The notes under the pieces: generated by a model
The model's database searches: none
Seen by the model: only the letters and a program-made list of their open reading frames with translations
What the model was told of the DNA's origin: nothing
Shown here: piece by piece, positions 2,039 to 37,516 of the stretch
Numbering within the stretch: position 1 is the stretch's first letter
Layout of the letters: every line of letters starts with the position of its first letter
Made by a program: the position numbers and the translations under genes
Source of the DNA: Inmirania thermothiophila
GTDB lineage: Bacteria; Pseudomonadota; Gammaproteobacteria; DSM-100275
DNA length: 64,000 nt
Assembly: GCF_003751635.1 (NCBI RefSeq)
Contig: NZ_RJVI01000002.1
Location: forward strand, 607,986-671,985
Direction: 5' to 3'

Positions 2039-4419
2039 GCGAATCCCCCCTCCGGGACCACCGGCCCCGGCTCCATCCCGCGCCGCAGGGCGTCGCGCAC
2101 GATCCACGCCTGCCCGAGGGCGAGCCCGCCGTCGCCCGCCGGCACCGCCCGCGCCTCCAGCACCGCAAGCCCCTGCGCCTCGAGCCGCGCGCGCAGCGCC
2201 GCGGCGAGCAGCGCGTTGGCCATGCAGCCGCCGCCGAGGGCCACCGTGCCGGCCCCCGCCTCGCGCGCCGCCGCCGCCGCCCACCGCGCCAGCGCCTCGG
2301 CCACGGTGGCGTGGAAGACCGCCGCCGCCTCCGCGTCCCGCGCCGGCCGCCCGGCGAGCCACTGGAGCAGCGGCAGCAGGTCGAGGCCCGCCGGGGTGGT
2401 GCGGAAGCCGTCCGGCAGCGGCGGCCGCGGCACCGCCCGCCGCGCCAGCGCCTCCAGCGCCATCGCCGCCTGCCCCTCGTAGCTGCTGTGAAGGCACAGC
2501 CCGAGCAGCGCCGCGGCGGCGTCGAAGAGCCGCCCGAGGCTGGTCGTCGGCGGGCAGCGCACGCCGCGCGCCAGCATCGCCGCCACCGCCTCCGCCGCCG
2601 GGCCCGGGAAGCGCCGCGCGATCTCGCCGCCGCGCCCGAGGCGATGCAGCACCGCCGCCGCCATCCGCCAGGGCTCGCGCGCGGCGGCGTCGCCCCCCGG
2701 CAGCGGCAGCGGCACGAGCGCCCCCAGCCTGCGCCAGCGCGCCCCATGCACCCACAGCAGCTCCCCACCCCAGGCCGCGCCGTCGGTGCCGAGCCCGACG
2801 CCGTCGGCGGCGATCCCCACCACCGGGCCCGCGGCACCGTGCTCGGCGCAGACGGCGCCCACGTGGGCGTGGTGGTGCTGCACCGCCCAGCAGCCGACCC
2901 CCAGCTCCGCCGCGAGCCGGCGGGCGAGGGCGGTGCTGGCGTAGTCCGGGTGCAGGTCGTGGACCACCGCCTCGGGCCGCACCGCGAGCACCCGCATCAG
3001 GTGCGTCGCCGCCTCGGCGAGGGCGAGGCGGGCGGCGCGGCTGTCGAGATCGCCCACGTGCTGGGCCGGGAAGGCCTCCTCGCCGCGGGTCAGGCAGGGC
3101 GCGTTTTTGAGGTGGGCGCCGAGGGCGAGCACCGAAGGGCCGCCGGCGCCGAGCGGGACCGGCTCCGGCGTCCACCCCCGCCCCCGCCGCAGCAGCCGCG
3201 CCCCGTCCGGCTCCGGCCGCAGCAGGCTGTCGTCGGCGCGCACGAGGATGACGCGGTCGTGGACGAGGAAGGCATCGGCGATGCCGGCGAGGCGCTCGCG
3301 GGCCTCCTCGTCGCCGATCACCAGCGGCTCGCCGCCCGGGTTGGCCGAGGTCATCACCAGCGCGAGCGGCAGCGGCCGCCCGAGCCACGCCGTCCCCTCG
3401 GGCCGCCCCGCGGCCTCGTGGAAGAGCAGATAGTGCACCGGGGTGTAGGGCAGCATCGCCCCGAGCCAGGCCACCCCCGGCGCGACACCGGCAAGCTCGG
3501 CGTCGCAGCCCGGGGCCTTGGGCAGGAGCACGATGGGCCGGCGCCGGTCCTCCAGCCAGCGCCGCCCCGCCGCGTCCACCTCCGCCCAGCGCGCGGCGGA
3601 TGCGGCGTTGAGCACCATCACCGCGAAGGGCCGCGCCGGGCGGCGCTTGCGCGCGCGAAGCCGCGCCACCGCGCCGGCATCGTCGGCGCGGCAGGCGAGG
3701 TGATAGCCGCCGAGGCCCTTGACCGCGACGATGGCGCCCGCCTCCAGCAGCGCCCAGGCCGCGGCCACGGGATCGCCGCCCGTCTCGCCCCCGTCCGCGC
3801 CCACCAGCCGCAGGCGGGGGCCGCAGCGGGGGCAGGCGTTGGGCTGGGCGTGGAAGCGGCGGTTGCCCGGATCGCGGTACTCGGCGGCGCAGTCCGGGCA
3901 CATGGGGAAGGCGGCCATGGAGGTCTGCGCCCGGTCGTAGGGGAGCGCCCCGGTGATGGTGAAGCGCGGCCCGCACTGGGTGCAGTTGATGAAGGGGTGG
4001 CGGTAGCGGCGGTCCGCGGGGTCGAAGAGCTCGGCCAGGCACCGGGGGCAGGTGGCGACGTCGGCCGGGATCCCGGTGCGCACCCGGCCCGGGCCGCTCG
4101 CCGCGATGACGAAGCCCTCGTGCCCCTCGGGCTGCGCCCGCCGGCGCTCCAGCGCCGCCACCGTGGCCAGGGACGGCGCCTCCGCCACCACCCGCGCGGC
4201 GAAGCGGTCGAGGGCCTCCCCCGCACCCTCGGCGTGGATCAGCACCCCGTCGCCGTCGTTGCGCACCCAGCCCGCGATGCCCAGCTCGCGCGCCAGGTGC
4301 CAGACGTGGGGCCGGAACCCGACCCCCTGGACGGATCCGCGCACGCGCAGCCGCTCCGCCCGCCGGGCGGGGGCGGCATCGGTCGCCGCGCTCAGCCCTG
4401 CAGCCGCCGCTCGATCCAC
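2029..4419 (-). CDS. hypF: Carbamoyltransferase HypF
   Basis: HypF transfers the carbamoyl group from carbamoyl phosphate to the C-terminal Cys of HypE, the first step of cyanide-ligand synthesis. Visible domains in order are: an N-terminal acylphosphatase-like domain ([16 protein letters not shown]); two zinc fingers (CPRC...NCTQCG and CPDC...ACPRCG); a YrdC-like domain ([14 protein letters not shown]); and a C-terminal Kae1-like domain with [11 protein letters not shown]. The length, about 796 residues, is slightly above the usual 750-780. The start is uncertain. I chose a GTG at 4419 inside the hypB end (about 28 nt overlap), because the only in-frame alternatives are a CTG at the hypB stop or a GTG that truncates the acylphosphatase strand. 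Confidence 0.95.
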
Positions 4420-20579: not shown

Positions 20580-21713
20580 CTAGCGCGACCCGCCTCCGGC
20601 CGCGAGCCGGCGGCGCAGGCGGGCGCAGCGCCGCGCCCGCGCCGGCCCCGGCGGCAGCCGCTCGGCCCAGGCGAGCGCGGCGGCGAAGTCGCGGCGCACG
20701 TGCTCGTGGTACTTGGCCAGCCGCTCCACGGCGCCGGCATCCCCCACCGCCGCCAGCCGCCGCCACAGGGGGAGCGCCGCCTCGGTGCAGCCGGCGCGGC
20801 GCAGCAGCTCCGCCCGCTCGCGCATGGCGGCCACGCCCTCGGCGGCGGCGATCACCGCGCAGGCCTCGGCGAGGCGCCCGGCGCGGGCCAGCGCCCGCGC
20901 CACCCCCACCCCATCGGCGCCGTGGCGGTGCGGTGCGCGGTGGGCGTGCGCCAGGCGCGCGAGGAGCTCGGCGAGCACCGCGACGTCGCGGCGGTTGTGG
21001 GCGACGACGCGGGCCACGGTCGCGGCCTCGCCGAGGCGCAGCCAGGCGAGCCACGCCGCCGGGGCCTCGCTGCCCGGCAGGTCCCCGCGCCGCGGCCGCC
21101 CCAGGATCTCGGCCTCCACGCGGGCCAGGCGGCAGTCGGCGAGGCGATGGCCCCAGGCCCTGCGCACCCCGTGGAGGAGGTCGATGTGGCCGCGGTGCGC
21201 CGGCAGGGCCACCCCGGCGAGGCGGGCCCGCGCCTGGATCAGCGGCAGGTCGAAGCTGCGCCCGTTGTAGCTCACCAGCGCCGCCCCCCTGAGCCAGGGT
21301 GCGGCCGCCTCGTAGAGCGCGGCCTCGCCGGCGAAGGCGGTGAGCAGGAGCTGGCGCAGGCGCAGCGCCCCGCCCTCGATGCGCGCAAGCCCCAGGAGGA
21401 AGACCGCGGTGCCGCTCCCGCCGGCGAGCCCCGTGGTCTCGGTGTCGATGAAGACGAGCTCGTCCGGCGCCACCCCTGCGGCCTCGGGCAGCGCCTCGAG
21501 CGGCGCCGCGGCGAGCGCCCGCGGCAGCGGCAGGCGGGCCTCCAGCGCGAGCAGCCCGGGTGCCGGCTGCCGCGCCCCGAGCCGTGCCGCCAGCGCCCGC
21601 TCGGCGGCGGCGCGGCGCCGCCGCTCCCGCTCCGCCAGCCCCCCGAGGGGGGCCGGCCGCGGCGCGCCGGCCTCGCGGCGCAGCCGCGCCAGCCGCGCGC
21701 TAAGGTCCGTCAC
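20580..21713 (-). CDS. mrfB: MrfB/YprB-like DEDDh exonuclease
   Basis: The central domain is a ribonuclease H-like 3'-5' exonuclease: FIDTETTGLAGGSG (Asp/Glu), SYNGRSFDLPLI (Asp) and VVAHNRRDVAVLAEL (His/Asp). The C-terminal region is helical with TPR-like character. It overlaps the end of the adjacent helicase gene by 14 nt. This pairing of a YprB-type nuclease with a YprA-type helicase is the MrfAB architecture, known in Bacillus to repair mitomycin C damage independently of UvrABC. Function here by homology and neighbourhood. Confidence 0.8.
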   Translation of the reverse strand: MTDLSARLARLRREAGAPRPAPLGGLAERERRRRAAAERALAARLGARQPAPGLLALEARLPLPRALAAAPLEALPEAAGVAPDELVFIDTETTGLAGGSGTAVFLLGLARIEGGALRLRQLLLTAFAGEAALYEAAAPWLRGAALVSYNGRSFDLPLIQARARLAGVALPAHRGHIDLLHGVRRAWGHRLADCRLARVEAEILGRPRRGDLPGSEAPAAWLAWLRLGEAATVARVVAHNRRDVAVLAELLARLAHAHRAPHRHGADGVGVARALARAGRLAEACAVIAAAEGVAAMRERAELLRRAGCTEAALPLWRRLAAVGDAGAVERLAKYHEHVRRDFAAALAWAERLPPGPARARRCARLRRRLAAGGGSR

Positions 21714-24093
21714 CGGCGAGCAGCTCCAGCACCCGCAGCGCCGCCGCCCGCGGCGTGCGCACCCCGGCCTCGTCGCCCGCCAGCACCGGGCCGACGCAGG
21801 CCGGGCAGCCGGCCCGGCAGGCGCACTCGCGCACCAGCGCCAGCGCCCCCGCCACCACCTGCGCCCGCGCCTCGTACAGCGGCTCCGACAGGCCGATCCC
21901 GCCGGGATAGGCGTCGTAGAGAAAGACCGTGGGCCGGAAGCGGGCGAGCGCCCCCGCCTCCAGCGCCGACCCGTCGGCGCCGCGGATGCCGCCCCGCCCG
22001 TCGGCCCCCACCACCGAGCACCAGCCGGCCTCGCCGTCGCCCACGGCGCGGCCGAGGTCGCGCGGCTCGGCCATGAGGTGCAGCGCGGCCACGTGGTGGA
22101 GGGCGTAGGCAGCCCCGAGGAAGCCGTCGAGGGCCTCGTCGCGCGAGGCGAAGGCGCGCTCGAGGGCCTCCGGGTCGAGCTGCCACCACGCCGCCGTGGT
22201 GTGCATCTCCTGGTCCGGCAGCCGGACCTCGCCGTAGCCCACGTTCTCGTGGCTGTAGTAGCGGATCTTCTTGTAGCCGGCGACGCGGCGGACGAGGTGG
22301 ACCTCGCCGTGGGCGGCGACGGCGGCGCCCCAGCGCGCGGCCGCGCAGCGGTCGAGGATGCGCAGCCGCGCGTAGTCGATGGCCTCGGTGTAGTAGTCGG
22401 CGCGGGTCGGCCGGACGTAGGCCTTGCGCCCCGTCCAGTCGAGGCGCTCCACCTGGTAGGGGCGGGCCTGCACCAGGTAGATGGCCCCCTCGTAGAGGGT
22501 CACGGGGGCGCTGGCGTAGTCCACCTCCGCGATGACCCGGCCGCCGTCGGCGCTCTCGTCCACGACCACGAAGTTGCCCTCCGCCACCGAGCGCAGGCTC
22601 ACCGAGTTGGCCGGATAGCTGTCGGCGATCCAGTGCCACCGCCCGCCCTCGCGGTAAAGCACGCCCTGGGCCTCGAGGTAGGCCAGCAGCTCGCCCACGT
22701 CCACCCCGCCGAAGCGCTCGCCGTCGCGGAAGGGCAGCTCGAAGGCGGCGCAGCGGACGTGGTCGAGCAGGATCAGGAGCTGGTCCGGGTCGATGCGCGC
22801 CCGCTCCGGGCTCGCCTCCAGGAAGAACTCCGGGTGGCGGATCACGTACTGGTCCAGGAGGTCGCTCCCCGCCACCAGGACCCCGAGGGCGGGCCGCCCC
22901 CGGCGCCCGGCGCGGCCGAGCCGCTGCCAGGCCGCGGCGACGCTGCCGGGATAGCCGTTGAGCACGGCCACGTCGAGGCCGCCGATGTCGACGCCGAGCT
23001 CCAGCGCCGAGGTGGCCACGACGCAGTGCACCGCGCCCTCGCGCAGGGCCCGCTCGGTGGCGCGCCGCGCCGTCGGCAGGTAGCCGCCGCGGTAGCCCGC
23101 CACCCGCGGCGGGCGACGCGGATCGCGGTCGAAGACGTCCTTCAGGTAGCGGGTGAGGATCTCCACCATGAGGCGCGTGCGCGCGAAGACGATGGTGCGA
23201 AGCCCCGCCCGCACCGCGGCGCGGGCGATGCGGGTGCTCTGGGAGCGGGCCGAGGCGCGGATCCCGAGGTCGGGATTGACCACCGGCGGGTTCCACAGCA
23301 GCAGGTGGCGCGCCCCCGCCGGCGCCCCGCTCTCGGTCACCGCCTCCACCGGCGCCCCCACGAGGCGCTCGGCGAGCTCGCGCGGATTGCCGATGGTGGC
23401 CGAGCACAGGATGAAGACCGGCTCCGCACCGTAGAAGCGGGCGATGCGGCGCAGCCGCCGCAGCACGTTGGCCACGTGCGAGCCGAAGACCCCGCGGTAG
23501 ACGTGCAGCTCGTCCACCACCACGTAGCGCAACCCCTCGAACAGCCGCGCCCACCGGGTGTGGTGCGGCAGGATGCCCTGGTGGAGCATGTCCGGGTTGG
23601 TGACCACGATGTCGGCGCGGGTGCGGATGGCGCGGCGGGCATCGCCCGGGGTGTCGCCGTCGAAGGTGTCGGCGCGGACCCCGAGCCCGCCCGCCTCGTC
23701 GAGGGCGAGCAGCTCCGCCACCTGATCCTGGGCCAGGGCCTTGGTGGGGAAGAGGTAGAGCGCCCGGGCGCCCCCGCCGAGCACCGCCTGGAGCACGGGC
23801 AGGTGATAGCAGAGGGACTTGCCCGAGGCCGTGGGGGTGGCCACCACCACGTGCCGCCCCGCGGCCACGTGGGCCCAGGCCTCGGCCTGATGGCTGTAGA
23901 GGGCGCGGATCCCGCGCGCCGCAAGCGCCGCCTCCAGGCGCCGGTCGAGCCCGCCCGGCAGGGGTGCGGTGCGCGCCGGCCGCGGCGGCAGGGTGACGGC
24001 GGCGGTGATGCGGTCGCGGTAGCGCCGGCCGAGCCGCGCCGCCAGGCGCGAGACCGGATCCGGCGCGGCGAGCTGCTCGGCGGGCGCGGACAT
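21700..24093 (-). CDS. mrfA: MrfA/YprA-like superfamily 2 helicase with C-terminal zinc site
   Basis: A 797-residue DEAD/H helicase: ATPTASGKSLCYHLP (Walker A), VVDELHVYRGVFGSHVANV (motif II), VATSALELGVDIGGLD and QRLGRAGRRGRPALG (motifs V-VI). The C-terminal DUF1998-type region ends in CACRAGCPACVG, four cysteines likely to bind zinc. These are features of YprA/MrfA. It is divergent from a lexA-like gene, and the shared intergenic region holds two direct-repeat LexA-type operators, so SOS control is likely. Start MSAPAEQLAAP. Confidence 0.87.
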   Translation of the reverse strand: MSAPAEQLAAPDPVSRLAARLGRRYRDRITAAVTLPPRPARTAPLPGGLDRRLEAALAARGIRALYSHQAEAWAHVAAGRHVVVATPTASGKSLCYHLPVLQAVLGGGARALYLFPTKALAQDQVAELLALDEAGGLGVRADTFDGDTPGDARRAIRTRADIVVTNPDMLHQGILPHHTRWARLFEGLRYVVVDELHVYRGVFGSHVANVLRRLRRIARFYGAEPVFILCSATIGNPRELAERLVGAPVEAVTESGAPAGARHLLLWNPPVVNPDLGIRASARSQSTRIARAAVRAGLRTIVFARTRLMVEILTRYLKDVFDRDPRRPPRVAGYRGGYLPTARRATERALREGAVHCVVATSALELGVDIGGLDVAVLNGYPGSVAAAWQRLGRAGRRGRPALGVLVAGSDLLDQYVIRHPEFFLEASPERARIDPDQLLILLDHVRCAAFELPFRDGERFGGVDVGELLAYLEAQGVLYREGGRWHWIADSYPANSVSLRSVAEGNFVVVDESADGGRVIAEVDYASAPVTLYEGAIYLVQARPYQVERLDWTGRKAYVRPTRADYYTEAIDYARLRILDRCAAARWGAAVAAHGEVHLVRRVAGYKKIRYYSHENVGYGEVRLPDQEMHTTAAWWQLDPEALERAFASRDEALDGFLGAAYALHHVAALHLMAEPRDLGRAVGDGEAGWCSVVGADGRGGIRGADGSALEAGALARFRPTVFLYDAYPGGIGLSEPLYEARAQVVAGALALVRECACRAGCPACVGPVLAGDEAGVRTPRAAALRVLELLAGDGP

Positions 24094-24167
24094 GGGCGAT
24101 CCTCCGCGGGCGCCGCCCCGCGATACCCGCCCCGAGGACGCGGCATCGGCGGCGGCCCGGCGCGCGT

Positions 24168-24214
24168 GTTCTCATTCCGTTCTCTGGTAGGATCATAGAG
24201 AACACGGGGAGAAC
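24168..24214. promoter_or_regulatory. Paired LexA-type operators between mrfA and lexA
   Basis: GTTC-TCATTCC-GTTC occupies 24168-24182 and, in the opposite orientation, GAAC-ACGGGGA-GAAC occupies 24200-24214. Each is a GTTC-N7-GTTC direct repeat, in the extended form GTTCTC-N5-GTTCTC. Their centres are 32 bp apart, about three helical turns. This is the motif known for alphaproteobacterial LexA, not the CTGT-N8-ACAG of enterics. The lexA start is 9 bp after the second box. Confidence 0.75.
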
Positions 24215-24223
24215 GGACAAGGG

Positions 24224-24823
24224 ATGCACGACCTCAGGGGACGCCGGCGGGAGATCCTCGAGCGGCTCCTCGCCCGCGCCCGCGCGGGCGCGCCGCCGCC
24301 GACCCTCGACGAGCTCTGCGCCGAGCTCGGCCTGCGCTCGCGCGGCGCGCTGCATCGCCACGTGCAGGCGCTGGTCGCGGCGGGCTGGCTGGAGCCGCCG
24401 CGGGGGCGCCCCGGGCTGCGCCTCAGCGCGCGCGCCTTGGCGGAGGCGGAGGGGCTGCCGCTGCTCGGCCGCATCGCCGCCGGCCGCCCCATCGAGGCCG
24501 TCGCCGACCCGCGCCGCGTCCCGGTGCCCCCCGCACTGCGCACCGCGCGCCCCTGCTACGTTCTGGAAGTGCGCGGCGACTCCATGATCGAGGACGGGAT
24601 CCTCGACGGCGACTGGGTCGTGGTGGAGGCGCGCGAGCACGCCCGCAACGGCGAGGTGGTGGTGGCCCTGATCGACGGCGCCGAGGCGACCCTCAAGCGC
24701 ATCGAGCAGCGCCCGGGGGAGGTGGTCCTCCACCCCGCCAACGCGGCCATGGCGCCGCTGCGCTACGCGCCGGAGCGGGTGCGCATCCAGGGCGTGGTGG
24801 TGGGCCTGATGCGGCGCTACTGA
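24224..24823 (+). CDS. lexA: LexA-like SOS repressor
   Basis: A 199-residue protein with an N-terminal winged helix (LDELCAELGLRSRGALHRHV) and a C-terminal S24 autoprotease domain. The self-cleavage site is Ala86-Gly87 (GRIAAGRPIEA); the catalytic Ser120 is in RGDSMIEDG and the Lys158 in EATLKRIE. The recognition helix differs from E. coli LexA, in line with the direct-repeat operators just upstream. It probably represses itself and the divergent mrfA-mrfB genes. Whether it is the only LexA of the organism cannot be told here. Confidence 0.9.
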   Translation: MHDLRGRRREILERLLARARAGAPPPTLDELCAELGLRSRGALHRHVQALVAAGWLEPPRGRPGLRLSARALAEAEGLPLLGRIAAGRPIEAVADPRRVPVPPALRTARPCYVLEVRGDSMIEDGILDGDWVVVEAREHARNGEVVVALIDGAEATLKRIEQRPGEVVLHPANAAMAPLRYAPERVRIQGVVVGLMRRY

Positions 24824-30683: not shown

Positions 30684-30800
30684 CGCCCTCCCCCGCTCCA
30701 CCGCAAGGCCCGCCATTGTAGCCGCCGCGCGGCCGGGGCTCGTCTGGTGAGCCCGTGAGCGGGCATCATGTGCGCCACACCCGGGCCACGGAGGCGCCCC

Positions 30801-33800
30801 TTGCTCACGGTCCATCACGGCAACCGCCTGGAGCGGCTCGCGGCGCGGCTCGCGACGGAGCTCGCCTTACCCCGCGGCGATGCCCTCACCCCCGACACCG
30901 TGGTGGTGCCCAACGCCGCGGTGGGGCGCTGGCTCGCCCTGCGCCTTGCCGACCACCTGGGCATCGCCGCCAACCTCCGGCTCCTGCTCCCGGCGGAGTT
31001 CGCATGGACCCTCTTCGCCCGCCTCCTCGGCGACGTCCCCGCGCGCACCGGCTACGACACCGAGGCCCTCACCTGGCGTGTGCTCGCCGCCCTCGAGGGC
31101 GACCTCGCGGGGCTCGAGCCGCTCGCCGGCTACCTCGCGCGCGCCGGACGGGACCCGCGCCAGCGGCTGGCGCTGGCGCGCCGCCTCGCCGCCGTCCTCG
31201 ACGTCTACCAGACCCACCGGCCGGACTGGATCCTGCGCTGGGACAGCGCCGCGGAGGCGCCCGACGACCCGGTGCTGCGCTGGCAGGCCCGCCTCTGGCG
31301 CCGCATCGCCCCCCGCGGCGCGCCCCACTGGCCGTGCCTGCTCCGCCGCTGCCTCGAGCGGCTCGCGGCCGACGCGCCGCCGCCCGGGCTGCCGCCGCGG
31401 CTCGACCTCTTCGCCCTCCCGGCGCTCTCGCCGGGCTACCTCGACCTCCTCGAGGGCCTCGCCCGCCACATCCCCGTCGCCCTCTACGTCCTCGACCCCT
31501 GCCGCGCCTACTGGGGCGACGTGGTGCCCGAGCGGCTGCTCGCCCGCCGCGCCGCCGAGGGCCGCCCCCTGCCCCACGCCGAGAGCGGCCACCCGCTGCT
31601 GGCCTCCCTCGGGCAGCAGGTCCAGGCCTTCCTCGACGCCCTCTGGGCGAGGGACGTGCACGACGAGGACCACTTCGAGGCCCCGTCGGAGGCGACCCTG
31701 CTCGGACGCATCCAGCGAGACATCCTGGACCTGCGCCCCCCCGCCGGCGAGCCCCAGCGGCTCGCGGAGACGCAGTCGCTGCAGATCCACGTCTGCCACG
31801 GCCCCCTGCGCGAGGTGGAGGCCCTCCACGACCGCCTTCTCGACCTCTTCGCGCGCCAGACCGACCTCGCCGCCACCGACGTCGCGGTGCTGGTGCCGGA
31901 TCTCGCCACCTACGCCCCGCTGGTGGAGGCGGTCTTCGGCGCCGCCGGGCGCATCCCCTACACCGTCGCCGAGCGCGCCGCCGCCGACGGCGCGCCCCTG
32001 GTGACCGGCTTCCTGGGGCTGCTGGAGGCGGCCCGCAGCCGCTTCGAGGTGGATCGCATCGCCGACCTCCTCGAGATCGCCCCCGTGCGCCGGCGCCTCG
32101 GGCTCGGGGAGGGCCAGCTGCCGCTGCTGCGGCACTGGCTGCGCAGCGCCGGGGTGCGCTGGGGGCGCGACGGCGCCCACCGCGCCGCCGAGGGCCTGCC
32201 CGCGGTGGAGACCCATACCTGGGCCGAGGGCCTGCGCCGCCTCCTCCTCGGCTACGCCCTGCCGGGCGAGGGCGAGCGCCTCTACGACGGACTCGTCCCC
32301 TGCGACGACGTGGAGGGCCAGGACGCCGAGGCGCTGGGCCTGCTGTGCCGGTTCGTGGAGGCGCTCGGCGCACTCGGCGCGGCGCTCGCCGAGCCGAGGC
32401 CGCCGGCGGCGTGGCGCGGCTTCCTGCTCGACGTCGTGGCGCGCTTCCTCGCCCCGGGCGAGGCGGACGAGAGCGAGCACCGCAGCCTCTGCGAGGCGGT
32501 GGAGGCGCTCGCCGCCGACGCCGAGGCCGCCGGCTTCGACCGCCCCGTCCCCTTCGCCGTCGTGGAGAGCGAGCTGCGCCGGCGCCTCGCCCGCCCCCGC
32601 GGCGGCAGCCCGCGCCTCGCCCGCGGCGTCGTGGTCGGCCCCATGCGCGCGCTGCGCGGGCTGCCCTTCCGCGTCGTCTGCCTGCTCGGCCTCAACGACG
32701 GCGACTTCCCCCGCGTGCGCGCCGACGACGGCCTCGACCGCACGCGGGCGCACCCCCGCCGCGGCGACCCCGACCCCCGGGCCGAGGATCGCGGGCTGTT
32801 CCTCGACGCCCTCCTCAGCGCCCGCGACGCCCTCCATCTCAGCTACGTGGGCCGCGACGAGCGCGACGACAGCCCCCGCCCGCCCTCCGTGGTCCTCGCC
32901 GAGCTCATGGACCTGGTGCGGAGCCTCCACGGCGAGGAGGGCCTGCGGCGGATCACCGTCGTCCACCGCCTCCAGCCCTTCCATCCGGACTACTTCCGCC
33001 CGGACGGCCCCCTCTACAGCCACGACGCGACGCTGTGCGAGGGCGCCCGCCGCCTCGTCGCCCGGGAGCCGGACCCCACGCCCCCCGAGCGGCGGCTGTT
33101 CCCGGCGCCCCTGCCGGCGCCGGAGGAGCCGGAACTGACCCCGCAGGCCTTCGCCCGGCTGCTCCGCCACCCGGTGGACTTCCTCCTGCGCGAGCGCCTC
33201 GGGGTGCGCCTCGAGACCGCGCCGGAGGTGCTCGAGGCCCGCGAGCCCTTCCTTCCCGACCCGCGGCAACGCCAGCGCCTGCGCGCGGTCCTGCTGCGGC
33301 GGGCCCTGCGCCAGGGCGCCCCGCCCGACCCCGGGGAGGCACGCGCCCTGCTCTCCGGCCTCGGCCTCCTCCCCCACGGCGAGGCGGCCGCCGCGCTCGC
33401 GGCCGGGCGTGCCCATGGCGAGCTGGCCGCGCTCTGGGCCCAGGCCGCGCCCCATCTCGCGCGTCCGCCGCGTCCGCCGCTGCCGGTGGACCTGGAAGCG
33501 GGGCCCCTGCGCGTGCGCGGCGTCCTCGACGACCTGCGCGAGCACGGGCGGCTGGTGCTCCTCGCCGGGCGGCTGCGCGCCCACCACCTCGTGGAGCACT
33601 GGGTGCTGCACCTGCTCGCCGGCGCCGTCCTCGCGACGCAGGGGGAGCCGGCCCCGCCCACGCACCTCGTCGCCCACGGTAGCCTCGCCCGGCTCGCGCC
33701 CACGGATGCCGGGACCGCGGCGGCGGCGCTGCAGGCCCTGGGGGCGCTCGCCGCCCAGGCCCTGCGCAAGCCCGTGCCCTTCGTGCCCGTGGTGTGGCTC

Positions 33801-34019
33801 GCGGAGGTCGCCGATGCGCTGCGCGAGGCGGGCCTGCCCCACGTCACGGCGCGGGATCCGGCCACGGCCTGGGAGGGCAGCGACTACGTCACCGCGGCCC
33901 GCGACGATCCGGCCCTGCGCCTCGTCTTCGGCGAGGGGCGCGAGGCCGACGAGCTGGATTTCGCGCATCCCCCCGGCCTGCTCGGGATCCTGCTCGCCGG
34001 CCTGGAGGGGGTGCGATGA
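30801..34019 (+). CDS. recC: Exodeoxyribonuclease V subunit gamma RecC
   Basis: RecC recognises Chi and holds the split strands in the RecBCD nuclease-helicase. Motifs such as LTVHHGNRLERLA at the N-terminus, VLVPDLATYAPLVEAVFG and VVGPMRALRGLPFRVVCLLGLNDGDFPR identify it. The true start is probably TTG at 30801, 6 nt after GGAGG and matching the usual RecC N-terminus; an ATG 33 nt upstream is an alternative. The length of about 1072 residues is normal for short RecC proteins. It overlaps recB by ATGA. Confidence 0.95.
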   Translation: MLTVHHGNRLERLAARLATELALPRGDALTPDTVVVPNAAVGRWLALRLADHLGIAANLRLLLPAEFAWTLFARLLGDVPARTGYDTEALTWRVLAALEGDLAGLEPLAGYLARAGRDPRQRLALARRLAAVLDVYQTHRPDWILRWDSAAEAPDDPVLRWQARLWRRIAPRGAPHWPCLLRRCLERLAADAPPPGLPPRLDLFALPALSPGYLDLLEGLARHIPVALYVLDPCRAYWGDVVPERLLARRAAEGRPLPHAESGHPLLASLGQQVQAFLDALWARDVHDEDHFEAPSEATLLGRIQRDILDLRPPAGEPQRLAETQSLQIHVCHGPLREVEALHDRLLDLFARQTDLAATDVAVLVPDLATYAPLVEAVFGAAGRIPYTVAERAAADGAPLVTGFLGLLEAARSRFEVDRIADLLEIAPVRRRLGLGEGQLPLLRHWLRSAGVRWGRDGAHRAAEGLPAVETHTWAEGLRRLLLGYALPGEGERLYDGLVPCDDVEGQDAEALGLLCRFVEALGALGAALAEPRPPAAWRGFLLDVVARFLAPGEADESEHRSLCEAVEALAADAEAAGFDRPVPFAVVESELRRRLARPRGGSPRLARGVVVGPMRALRGLPFRVVCLLGLNDGDFPRVRADDGLDRTRAHPRRGDPDPRAEDRGLFLDALLSARDALHLSYVGRDERDDSPRPPSVVLAELMDLVRSLHGEEGLRRITVVHRLQPFHPDYFRPDGPLYSHDATLCEGARRLVAREPDPTPPERRLFPAPLPAPEEPELTPQAFARLLRHPVDFLLRERLGVRLETAPEVLEAREPFLPDPRQRQRLRAVLLRRALRQGAPPDPGEARALLSGLGLLPHGEAAAALAAGRAHGELAALWAQAAPHLARPPRPPLPVDLEAGPLRVRGVLDDLREHGRLVLLAGRLRAHHLVEHWVLHLLAGAVLATQGEPAPPTHLVAHGSLARLAPTDAGTAAAALQALGALAAQALRKPVPFVPVVWLAEVADALREAGLPHVTARDPATAWEGSDYVTAARDDPALRLVFGEGREADELDFAHPPGLLGILLAGLEGVR

Positions 34020-37000
34020 GCCGGTCCGCGCAGCCGACGCAGCGCCCCGCTCCCTTCGACCCCCTCGAGGTGCCCGTCGCCGGGTGGAACCTGGTGGAGG
34101 CGAGCGCCGGCACGGGCAAGACCTGGAGCCTCGTCACCCTCTACGTCCGGCTCGTCGCCGAGTGCGGCCTGCGCCCGGAGCAGATCCTCGCCATCACCTT
34201 CACGCGCGCCGCCACCGCCGAGATGCGCGAGCGCATCCGCGCCCGCCTCGTGGGGCTCTGGCAGGCCTGCCGCGGCGGTGCGCCGGAGGACGAGGCCATG
34301 GCGCGCCTGCTCGCCCGCCTGCGCCGCGACCCCGGTCTCGAGGCCGCGGCCGGGCGCCTGGAGCGGGCGGTGCGCGACTTCGACCTCGCCGCCGTGCACA
34401 CCATCCACGCCTTCTGCCAGCAGGTGCTGGCGGAGCACGCCTTCACCGGCGGCGCCGCGCTGGATGCCGAGCTGGACGAGGACACCGCCGAGGACGTGCG
34501 GGCGGTGCTGGAGGACTTCTGGCGCCGACGTATCGCCCCCCTGCCCCCCGATCTCCTGGAGGCCTTCGCCGAGGTCTGCCCGGACCCCGCCGCGCTGCAG
34601 CGGACGCTGCGGGACCTGCTGCCCAAGCCCTACCTCCGCGTCCCCGAGGGGTGGCACGGCGGCGACGGGCCCGATCTCGGCCCCCTCCTCGCGCACCGGG
34701 ACGAGGCCTGGGCGGCGGTGCGTGAGGCCGCGGCCGATCTCGACTCCGCCGGCGCCGTGCTGGAGGCCTTCCTCGCGGGCGACTGCCGGCTCAACAGCCG
34801 CGACCGGATCCGCCGCGGGTTCGAGGCCCTGCGCGCGGCGCTCGGCGGCGACCGGCCCCCGCCCCTCGACGACGACCTCGCCGCGATCCGCGCCGCCCAC
34901 CTGGCGCGCTGCACGCGCAAGGGGGGCACGCCCCCGGACCACCCCCTCTTCCGGCGCATGGAGGCCTACGCCGAGGCCGCCGAGGAGCTCCGGCAGGCGC
35001 TTGCGCGGCGCGTCCCCGGCCTCCTCGTCGAGGCCCTGAGGACGGTCTGGCGCGAGCTCCCGGCAAGACTCGAGGCCGACGGCCGGCGCGCCTTCGACGA
35101 CCTGCTGCGCGGCCTCCAGCGCGCCCTCGAGGACCGCACCCGGGGCGAGGCCCTGGCCCGCGCCGTCGCCGAGCGCTTTCCCGTCGCCCTGGTGGACGAG
35201 TTCCAGGACACCGACCCCATCCAGTACGCCATCCTCCGCCGCATCTACGGCGGGGGGCGGGGCCGCGCGGTCTTCCTCGTGGGCGACCCCAAGCAGGCCA
35301 TCTACGCCTTCCGCGGCGCCGACGTCCACACCTACCTCGCCGCCGCCGGCGCGGTGGACCGCCGCTACGCGCTCACCGTGAACCGGCGCGCGACCCCGCG
35401 CCTGGTGGCCGCCTTCAACGCCTTCTTCGGCCGCATCACCGATCCCTTCGGCGCCGTCCCCATCGCCTATCCCCCGGCGGAGGCCACCGCCGATCCCCCC
35501 CTGCGCCTGCTCGTGGACGGCGAGGAGCCGGCGCCGCTGCGCCTGCGGGTCGTGGAGGGCGCGCCTCGCGACCGCGCCGCCACCGCCGTCACCGTGGCCG
35601 CCATCCGCGAGCTCCTCGCCCTCGGCGCGGCCGGGCGCGCCGTCCTCGTCGGCCGCGACGGCGCGCGCCGCCCCCTCGCGGCCCGGGACATCGCCGTGCT
35701 CACCCGCTCCAACGCCCAGGCCGAGACCATGCGCCGGGCGCTCGCGCGCGCCGGCATCGCCGCCGCCTGCGCCACCCAGGCCTCGGTGTTCGAGAGTGCC
35801 GAGGCGCGCATGCTGCTGCGCGTCCTCGCCGCGGTCCTCGCCCCCGCCGACGACGGCGCCCTGCGCGCGGCCCTGCTCACGCCGCTCTTCGGCCTCGACG
35901 CCTGCCAGCTCGACGCGCTCCCGGCGCGGGAATACGACGACCTGGTGCAGGAGGCGGCGGAGCTCGGGCGGCTCTGGCGCGAACGCGGGTTCATGCCCAT
36001 GTTCCGCGCCCTCCTCGCCCGCCGCGGCGGGGCCGCCCGCCTCCTCGCCGGACCCGACGGGGAGCGCGCCATGACCAACCTGCGCCACCTCGCCGAGCTC
36101 CTGGAGGCCGAGGCCGACGCCCGCGGGGCCCGCCCCGAACGGCTCCTCGACTGGCTCGCCGAGCGCGTCCACGGCCTCGTCCCGGCAAGCCCGGTGCACC
36201 AGCTGCGCCTGGAGAGCGAGGGCGAGCTGGTGCAGATCCTCACTATCCACCGCAGCAAGGGCCTGGAATTCCCGGTGGTCTTCTGCCCCTTCCTGAACGG
36301 CGGTCTGGGGCCGGTGCGGGAGCCGCTCGCCGCGGCCCACGACGAGGACGGGCGGGCGGTCCTCGTCCCCGACCCGGACGGTGCGTGGGAGGAACGGATC
36401 CGTGACGAGCGCTGCGCCGAGCTGCTGCGGCTGCAGTACGTGGCCCTGACCCGCGCCGCCTGCCTGTGCGAGATCGCCTGGTGGGTGCCGCCGCCGCGGT
36501 CGCAACAGCGCTGGAGCCCGCTCCGCCACATCGCCGAGGGCGCAGCCGGCCCCGCCGATCTCGCCGGCCCCGACATCGTCGTCCTGCGCGGCCCGCCGCC
36601 CGAGGCGCCGCCCGCGCCCCCGGCGGAGACCGCCGCCGAGCCCCTCGCCGCGCGCACCCCGCCGGCGGTGGATCCGGGACCGCGCCTGACCAGCTTCACC
36701 GCCATCGCCGCCGGGGTCGAGGCGGTGGCCGACCACGACCCCGAACCCGCCGCCCCCGCGGCCGAGGACGGCGGCGAGGGCATCCACGCCTTCCCCCGCG
36801 GCGCCGTGCCCGGGAGCTGCCTCCACGCCGTGTTCGAGGCCCACGACTTCGCCGCCGCGGACCGCGCCGCACTGGAGCGGCTGTGCACCGAGCGGCTGCG
36901 GGCCTTCGGCCTCGAGACCTCCTGGACCCCGGTGCTCGCCGACGCGGTGGAGCGCACCCTCGCCACCGCCCTCGACGACGCCGGCCTGCGCCTCGCCGGC

Positions 37001-37516
37001 CTGCCGCGCGCGCGGCGGAGCGACGAGATGGTCTTCCACCTCCCGGCGCGGGTGGAGCCCGCCCGCCTCGCCGCGGTCCTGCGGGCGCACGGCGCCGCGC
37101 CCCACCGCCGCCTCGCCGAGCGCCTCGCCGGGCTGCCATGGGCGCCGCTGCAGGGCTACCTCACCGGCGCCATCGACCTCGTCTTCGAGGCCGACGGCCG
37201 CTACTGGATCGTCGACTACAAGTCCAACCGCCTCGGCCCCACCGCCGAGGACTACACCCCCGAGCGCATCGCGCGCGCCATGGACGAGCGCCTCTACACC
37301 CTGCAGTACCTACTCTACACCGTGGCCCTGCACCGCCACCTCGCGCGGCGGCTGCGCGGCTACGACTATGCGCGCCACTTCGGCGGCGTCTTCTACCTCT
37401 TCGTGCGGGGCATGGACCCCGCCACGGGACCACGCCGCGGGGTCTTCGCCGACCGCCCGCCGCGGCCGCTGGTGGAGGCCCTCGACGCCTGCTTCCGCGG
37501 GGACGGTGCGGCATGA
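34016..37516 (+). CDS. recB: Exodeoxyribonuclease V subunit beta RecB
   Basis: A 1166-residue UvrD-type helicase fused to a nuclease. LVEASAGTGKTWSLVTLYVRL is Walker A; VALVDEFQDTDPIQYAIL the DExx motif; QILTIHRSKGLEFPVVFCP motif V; VALTRAACLCEIAW motif VI. The C-terminal nuclease domain retains GAIDLVF and YWIVDYKSNRLG (the catalytic Asp-Lys pair, about residue 1066). Coupled to recC upstream and recD downstream by ATGA overlaps. Confidence 0.97.
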   Translation: MSRSAQPTQRPAPFDPLEVPVAGWNLVEASAGTGKTWSLVTLYVRLVAECGLRPEQILAITFTRAATAEMRERIRARLVGLWQACRGGAPEDEAMARLLARLRRDPGLEAAAGRLERAVRDFDLAAVHTIHAFCQQVLAEHAFTGGAALDAELDEDTAEDVRAVLEDFWRRRIAPLPPDLLEAFAEVCPDPAALQRTLRDLLPKPYLRVPEGWHGGDGPDLGPLLAHRDEAWAAVREAAADLDSAGAVLEAFLAGDCRLNSRDRIRRGFEALRAALGGDRPPPLDDDLAAIRAAHLARCTRKGGTPPDHPLFRRMEAYAEAAEELRQALARRVPGLLVEALRTVWRELPARLEADGRRAFDDLLRGLQRALEDRTRGEALARAVAERFPVALVDEFQDTDPIQYAILRRIYGGGRGRAVFLVGDPKQAIYAFRGADVHTYLAAAGAVDRRYALTVNRRATPRLVAAFNAFFGRITDPFGAVPIAYPPAEATADPPLRLLVDGEEPAPLRLRVVEGAPRDRAATAVTVAAIRELLALGAAGRAVLVGRDGARRPLAARDIAVLTRSNAQAETMRRALARAGIAAACATQASVFESAEARMLLRVLAAVLAPADDGALRAALLTPLFGLDACQLDALPAREYDDLVQEAAELGRLWRERGFMPMFRALLARRGGAARLLAGPDGERAMTNLRHLAELLEAEADARGARPERLLDWLAERVHGLVPASPVHQLRLESEGELVQILTIHRSKGLEFPVVFCPFLNGGLGPVREPLAAAHDEDGRAVLVPDPDGAWEERIRDERCAELLRLQYVALTRAACLCEIAWWVPPPRSQQRWSPLRHIAEGAAGPADLAGPDIVVLRGPPPEAPPAPPAETAAEPLAARTPPAVDPGPRLTSFTAIAAGVEAVADHDPEPAAPAAEDGGEGIHAFPRGAVPGSCLHAVFEAHDFAAADRAALERLCTERLRAFGLETSWTPVLADAVERTLATALDDAGLRLAGLPRARRSDEMVFHLPARVEPARLAAVLRAHGAAPHRRLAERLAGLPWAPLQGYLTGAIDLVFEADGRYWIVDYKSNRLGPTAEDYTPERIARAMDERLYTLQYLLYTVALHRHLARRLRGYDYARHFGGVFYLFVRGMDPATGPRRGVFADRPPRPLVEALDACFRGDGAA

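Follow-up and report, generated by a model that had tools for sequence, protein, structure and literature searches.

Cohabiting LexA1 and LexA2 regulons are known from Pseudomonas putida and Xanthomonas axonopodis, according to Abella 2007 and Yang 2002 as cited in PMC9578287 and PMC3901139. Reviews assign the LexA box CTGT-N8-ACAG to beta- and gammaproteobacteria and GTTC-N7-GTTC to alphaproteobacteria, and describe changes of the motif as monophyletic (PMC3323433). Alphaproteobacterial LexA, for example that of Caulobacter, reads GTTCT-N6-GTTCT with a helix that carries H-R or H-K at two key positions, and is the main LexA, controlling recA and other genes (PMC3323433, PMC9578287). For the non-canonical LexA of Bacteroidetes, a model of duplication and divergence has been proposed, in which the extra LexA copy has come to differ in its motif and serves a regulon of its own (PMC8565304). 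The MrfAB proteins of Bacillus subtilis (YprA-YprB), an MZB-domain helicase and a DEDDh exonuclease encoded in one operon, have been described in two papers that do not mention control by LexA or the SOS response (0 occurrences; PMC11194089, PMC12458937).

Here, we describe a locus that shares features with each of these systems, within a window of 64,000 nucleotides from the gammaproteobacterium Inmirania thermothiophila (Table 1). As in P. putida and X. axonopodis, a second LexA exists beside a canonical one, has its own distinct box, and is predicted to control itself and linked damage genes. Unlike in those bacteria, this lexA2 is divergent from mrfAB rather than heading an imuA-imuB-dnaE2 operon, its box is GTTC-N7-GTTC, and imuA and dnaE2 lie elsewhere with LexA1-type boxes. 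The box and the two helix residues are those of alphaproteobacterial LexA, but the protein belongs to a distinct clade and is accessory to LexA1. Duplication, a diverged motif and a separate regulon are shared with the Bacteroidetes case, although the protein family and motifs there are different, both LexA proteins here being members of TIGR00498. The operon clearly matches both B. subtilis MrfAB structures, while differing from MrfAB as published in carrying LexA2 boxes.

Table 1. Features of the mrfAB-lexA2 locus (window positions) and of related loci in other genomes.
Feature	Position	Strand	Basis or remark
mrfB, DEDDh-type exonuclease	20580..21713	-	PF13482; MrfB structure 8un9, E 2.7e-31
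mrfA, MrfA/YprA-type superfamily 2 helicase with MZB domain	21700..24093	-	PF00270, PF00271, PF09369
Possible lexA2 promoter, GTGTTC-16-TAGGAT	24166..24193	+	weak, read by eye; overlaps box 1
LexA2 box 1, GTTCTC-N5-GTTCTC	24168..24184	+	exact match; over predicted lexA2 promoter
Predicted mrfA -10, TATGAT	24192..24197	-	promoter scan
LexA2 box 2, GTTCTC-N5-GTTCTC	24198..24214	-	exact match; coincides with the 17-bp spacer between the predicted mrfA -35 and -10
Predicted mrfA -35, TTGTCC	24215..24220	-	promoter scan
lexA2, second LexA repressor, 199 aa, winged HTH and S24 peptidase	24224..24823	+	
dinB-linked LexA loci	L029, L033, L034, L037-L039, L042, L044, L045, L136, L138, L144		
Small membrane protein behind box, L208	G083:C7, about 124137-124304		
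Small membrane protein behind box, L210	G133:C10, about 24900		

The mrfA product matched the B. subtilis YprA/MrfA structure 6znp with an E-value of 1e-221, and mrfB overlaps the mrfA stop codon, indicating an operon. Together, the two genes encode the components typical of MrfAB: a YprA-type helicase with an MZB domain and an adjoining RNase H-like DEDDh exonuclease. lexA2 is transcribed divergently, the intergenic region running from the end of mrfA at 24093 (minus) to the lexA2 start at 24224 (plus). Its product scored 146.9 bits against TIGR00498 over residues 1-198 (curated cut-off 110.95), contained PF00717, and aligned end to end with LexA proteins of solved structure. The Ala86-Gly87 cleavage site and the catalytic dyad Ser120/Lys158 are all present; cleavage site and dyad are retained in 49 of 50 LexA2 proteins. 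Judged by its sequence, the gene at 24224-24823 is that of a true LexA, the second of this genome. About 6 kb from mrfAB-lexA2, the window also contains recC (TIGR01450) and recB (TIGR00609) at 30768-37516 (plus), where no LexA2 box was found.

The initial annotation had pointed out two GTTC-N7-GTTC repeats in opposite orientations with GTTCTC cores, 32 bp apart between centres, and this can be read directly from the sequence. Box 1 runs from 24168 GTTCTCATTCCGTTCTC 24184 on the plus strand, and box 2, read on the minus strand from 24214 to 24198, is GTTCTCCCCGTGTTCTC; the region 24168-24214 reads in full GTTCTCATTCCGTTCTC TGGTAGGATCATA GAGAACACGGGGAGAAC. The centres of the 15-bp cores lie at 24175 and 24207, and a repeat finder combined both boxes into a single inverted repeat with arms of 18 nt separated by 11 nt. 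In the window, GTTC-N7-GTTC matched 3 times (0.54 expected) and GTTCTC-N5-GTTCTC twice (0.00 in 100 shuffles). Across the 2.6-Mb genome, the exact longer pattern occurs only in these two boxes; one mismatch added two more sites, the same number as the control pattern gave, and when as many as 3 mismatches were allowed, noise swamped the signal. No support emerged for an extensive LexA2 regulon in I. thermothiophila: other GTTC-N7-GTTC sites were about as numerous as control sites.

To place the boxes in a wider context, LexA2 relatives were selected by protein similarity alone, yielding 85 dereplicated upstream regions. GTTC-N7-GTTC was found in 49 of these and GAAC-N7-GAAC in 43, against about 0.15 in shuffles, while nearly all other spacings gave 0-3. 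At least one box in either orientation was present in 67 of the 85 (0.3 in shuffles), and a facing pair in 25; neither CTGT-N8-ACAG nor the Gram-positive GAAC-N4-GTTC was found in any of them. The site consensus is GTTCTC-N5-GTTCT(C/A). The exact box was absent from 13 of 59 LexA2 upstream regions, some of which possibly belong to operons or have misjudged starts. By comparison, gammaproteobacterial lexA1 genes carried CTGT-N8-ACAG in 13 of 23 cases and the direct repeat in none, and alphaproteobacterial-type lexA genes carried the direct repeat in 6 of 6, the class of these six genomes having been assigned by kinship and sequence. The same association was visible at the level of whole genomes: 36 genomes with such a LexA contained 43 exact boxes (5 for the control), while 36 genomes without it contained 9 (again 5 for the control), one of which immediately precedes a further LexA gene (G054). 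Several exact boxes lying off the locus in other genomes (L217, L218, L220, L221) fall within coding sequence and were discounted as chance matches. The pairing of LexA2 with this box thus recurs in dozens of related bacteria and, as far as sequences can tell, is conserved rather than an oddity of one genome.

The recognition helix follows the same division. It reads S-R-G-S-L-H-K in LexA2, S-K-S-G-I-H-R in alphaproteobacterial LexA and S-P-N-A-A-E-E in gammaproteobacterial LexA; in the protein studied here it is RSRGALHRH, compared with the canonical gammaproteobacterial RS(P/A)NAAEEH. At the positions of N-A-A-E-E in LexA1, LexA2 proteins have G-S-L-H-K, this LexA2 G-A-L-H-R, a related group of dinB-linked LexA proteins G-V-V-H-R, and alphaproteobacterial LexA S-G-I-H-R. 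H-K/R thus stands in LexA2 and the dinB-linked group where LexA1 has E-E, and alphaproteobacterial LexA has H-R. In the E. coli LexA-DNA complex, these helix residues face the DNA. The common box and the common H-K/R residues go together. LexA2 shows neither mark of a canonical gammaproteobacterial LexA, an upstream CTGT-N8-ACAG or an E. coli-type helix, and does have GTTC-N7-GTTC at its own promoter as alphaproteobacterial LexA does. The earlier description of the boxes as alphaproteobacterial in type agrees with the published motif (PMC3323433, PMC8565304), and they probably belong to LexA2.

We infer that a second, specialised LexA uses the two boxes as its operators, repressing itself and mrfAB and releasing both after RecA-stimulated self-cleavage, a reading to which we assign a probability of about 0.87. 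A LexA2 dimer would bind each GTTCTC-N5-GTTCTC direct repeat, and bound LexA2 would close both divergent promoters, because box 2 lies between the -35 and -10 elements of mrfA and box 1 over the lexA2 promoter. Upon DNA damage, RecA filaments would stimulate cleavage of LexA2 at Ala86-Gly87 through the Ser120-Lys158 dyad. The promoters would then open and MrfAB would be made, a helicase and exonuclease pair that in B. subtilis repairs mitomycin-type damage, after which resynthesised LexA2 would reset the switch. LexA1 would run a separate set of genes through CTGT-N8-ACAG at imuA and dnaE2.

The arrangement of the promoters fits this proposal. TTGTCC-17-TATGAT on the minus strand was the sole sigma-70-like promoter returned by a consensus scan of the region (0.0 expected), and box 2 fills its 17-bp spacer exactly; the scan reported no lexA2 promoter. 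All 14 good lexA2-mrfA pairs have a gap of 17-19 bp between the facing boxes, which raises the possibility that the half-sites, four in all, act together as a large palindrome bound by one complex (a tetramer of LexA2 or a looped DNA, for example) instead of as two independent boxes; the perfect facing symmetry would also allow this. However, 42 of the 67 box-bearing relatives have boxes in one orientation only, so single boxes suffice, and in other contexts the facing gaps are scattered from 7 to 30. We consider a single large operator improbable, although it fares best among the alternatives. A geometry that is fixed everywhere was rejected, as it is fixed in lexA2-mrfA promoters only; with the gap varying from 7 to 30 elsewhere, any role of phasing would be confined to the divergent pair. 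The suggestion that the symmetric pair serves both divergent promoters is in keeping with centres about three helical turns apart in lexA2-mrfA promoters; such pairs are not exclusive to divergent promoters, however.

The genome encodes another LexA with an S24 peptidase domain, LexA1 (C2:425643-426218), which is intact and has an E. coli-type helix, F-R-S-A-N-A-A-A-E-H. CTGT-N8-ACAG occurs at four genomic sites, two of them directly before the mutagenesis genes imuA and dnaE2 (CTGTTTATATGAACAG and CTGTTCAAATGAACAG); those at C1:1071242 and C1:789712 lie inside or among coding sequence and are likely chance matches. As LexA1 is present and intact, and the imuA and dnaE2 boxes happen to hold GAAC or GTTC half-sites, LexA1 rather than the adjoining LexA2 might read the boxes at lexA2-mrfA, through cross-talk or a shared regulon. 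This is quite unlikely, given that its helix is E. coli-type, that all gammaproteobacterial lexA1 genes with a recognisable box have CTGT-N8-ACAG and none a direct repeat, and that across genomes the direct repeat tracks LexA2, not LexA1.

It had also been proposed that the LexA of this genome changed its specificity. A genome-wide change was rejected: LexA2 did not replace the gammaproteobacterial LexA, because LexA1 and canonical boxes exist elsewhere in the genome. LexA2 is, by all sequence indications, an accessory LexA and not a respecified main one, and two LexA networks coexist. A genome scan for GTTC-N7-GTTC upstream of recA and other SOS genes, suggested at the outset, recovered the exact pair at lexA2-mrfA and nothing within 300 bp of recA (C3:365482); nor did those 300 bp contain a canonical box, one of the two findings that were named together in advance as counter-evidence. 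The 300 bp upstream of lexA1 (C2:425643) similarly lacked both box types. Box-free recA and lexA1 genes are unusual for an SOS core, and within these 300 bp no LexA feedback on RecA is visible; RecA may be constitutive here.

The other proposed origin, acquisition of the LexA together with its operators, fared poorly as a recent import from an alphaproteobacterium. The box is the same as that of alphaproteobacterial LexA and the helix similar, and a joint clade of the two was not rejected (p-AU 0.41). In the free tree, however, LexA2 forms a separate gammaproteobacterial clade of 50 rows (support 100/99), apart from both LexA1 and alphaproteobacterial LexA, the latter on a long branch of 1.33. 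Its closest relatives are from Aquisalimonas, Sedimenticola, Chromatiales and Methylococcales, the relatives are spread over many gammaproteobacterial families, and none among the best 80 loci was labelled as an alphaproteobacterium. Recent transfer is accordingly not supported and very unlikely, while the p-AU of 0.41 neither demonstrates nor rejects a common, deeper ancestry. Finally, a functionless chance repeat, for which the shortness of the four-base core GTTC and the control-level number of isolated matches elsewhere in the genome might speak, is contradicted by the same placement, spacing and orientation in dozens of families and by its absence from shuffles, and has a negligible probability.

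Cohabiting LexA regulons and the alphaproteobacterial box are known; for the pairing of this box and helix in Gammaproteobacteria and for the link to mrfAB, no description was found in the papers searched. Our literature search, with most subscription journals outside its scope, found neither a GTTC-N7-GTTC LexA in Gammaproteobacteria, of which an earlier mention is possible, nor a description of LexA control of MrfAB. Across relatives, boxes precede lexA2, mrfAB, genes for Y-family polymerases and a gene for a small membrane protein. Close mrfA relatives were present in 8 of 143 gammaproteobacterial genomes, with LexA2 in all 7 not cut by a contig end. In G083 (locus L209), boxes also stand before an mrfA that is not linked to lexA2; for the mrfA unlinked to lexA2 in G133, no full box was seen in the 160 bp upstream. 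In the dinB-linked group, Y-family polymerase genes follow lexA; in L211 and L216 they are unlinked and preceded by a box.

With about even odds, these occurrences mark a widespread, undescribed second SOS circuit across Gammaproteobacteria, in which an old non-LexA1 lineage (LexA2 and the dinB-linked LexA) reads GTTC-N7-GTTC and has become dedicated to repair by MrfAB, to Y-family polymerases and possibly to the small membrane protein, parallel to the LexA1 network. If true, this would be the first direct link between MrfAB and SOS control. The locus itself would tie the MrfAB mitomycin-repair pathway, whose regulation the two papers on MrfAB do not discuss, to an SOS-type repressor. Both box types are present in a single gammaproteobacterial genome, probably read by two different LexA proteins, which offers a clean natural experiment on how a paralogue of LexA acquires or retains its own code with the fold unchanged and two key helix residues altered. 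A further prediction is that scans for LexA regulons in gammaproteobacteria overlook a second damage regulon when they use only the canonical box.

Several smaller observations were made among the relatives. The dinB-linked LexA genes seem to share an operon with the gene of a DinB/UmuC-like Y-family polymerase (WPRAI.LVDMNAFFAS.EQ) and have GTTC-N7-GTTC boxes. The small membrane protein has the motif M-x-DQV(R/K)xRVxx(I/L)M, and its gene follows exact LexA2 boxes in both G083 and G133; the protein is possibly damage-induced and perhaps a division inhibitor, and the I. thermothiophila genome has no clear homologue. In a third genome, a protein with the same motif is encoded directly upstream of lexA2 (L106, around 3765-4000). 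The lexA leaders of L137, L138 and L144, from Muproteobacteria/Acidiferrobacterales MAGs, share a near-identical repeated stretch, GACGAACGAGCGGAGCGAGTAGGGC.
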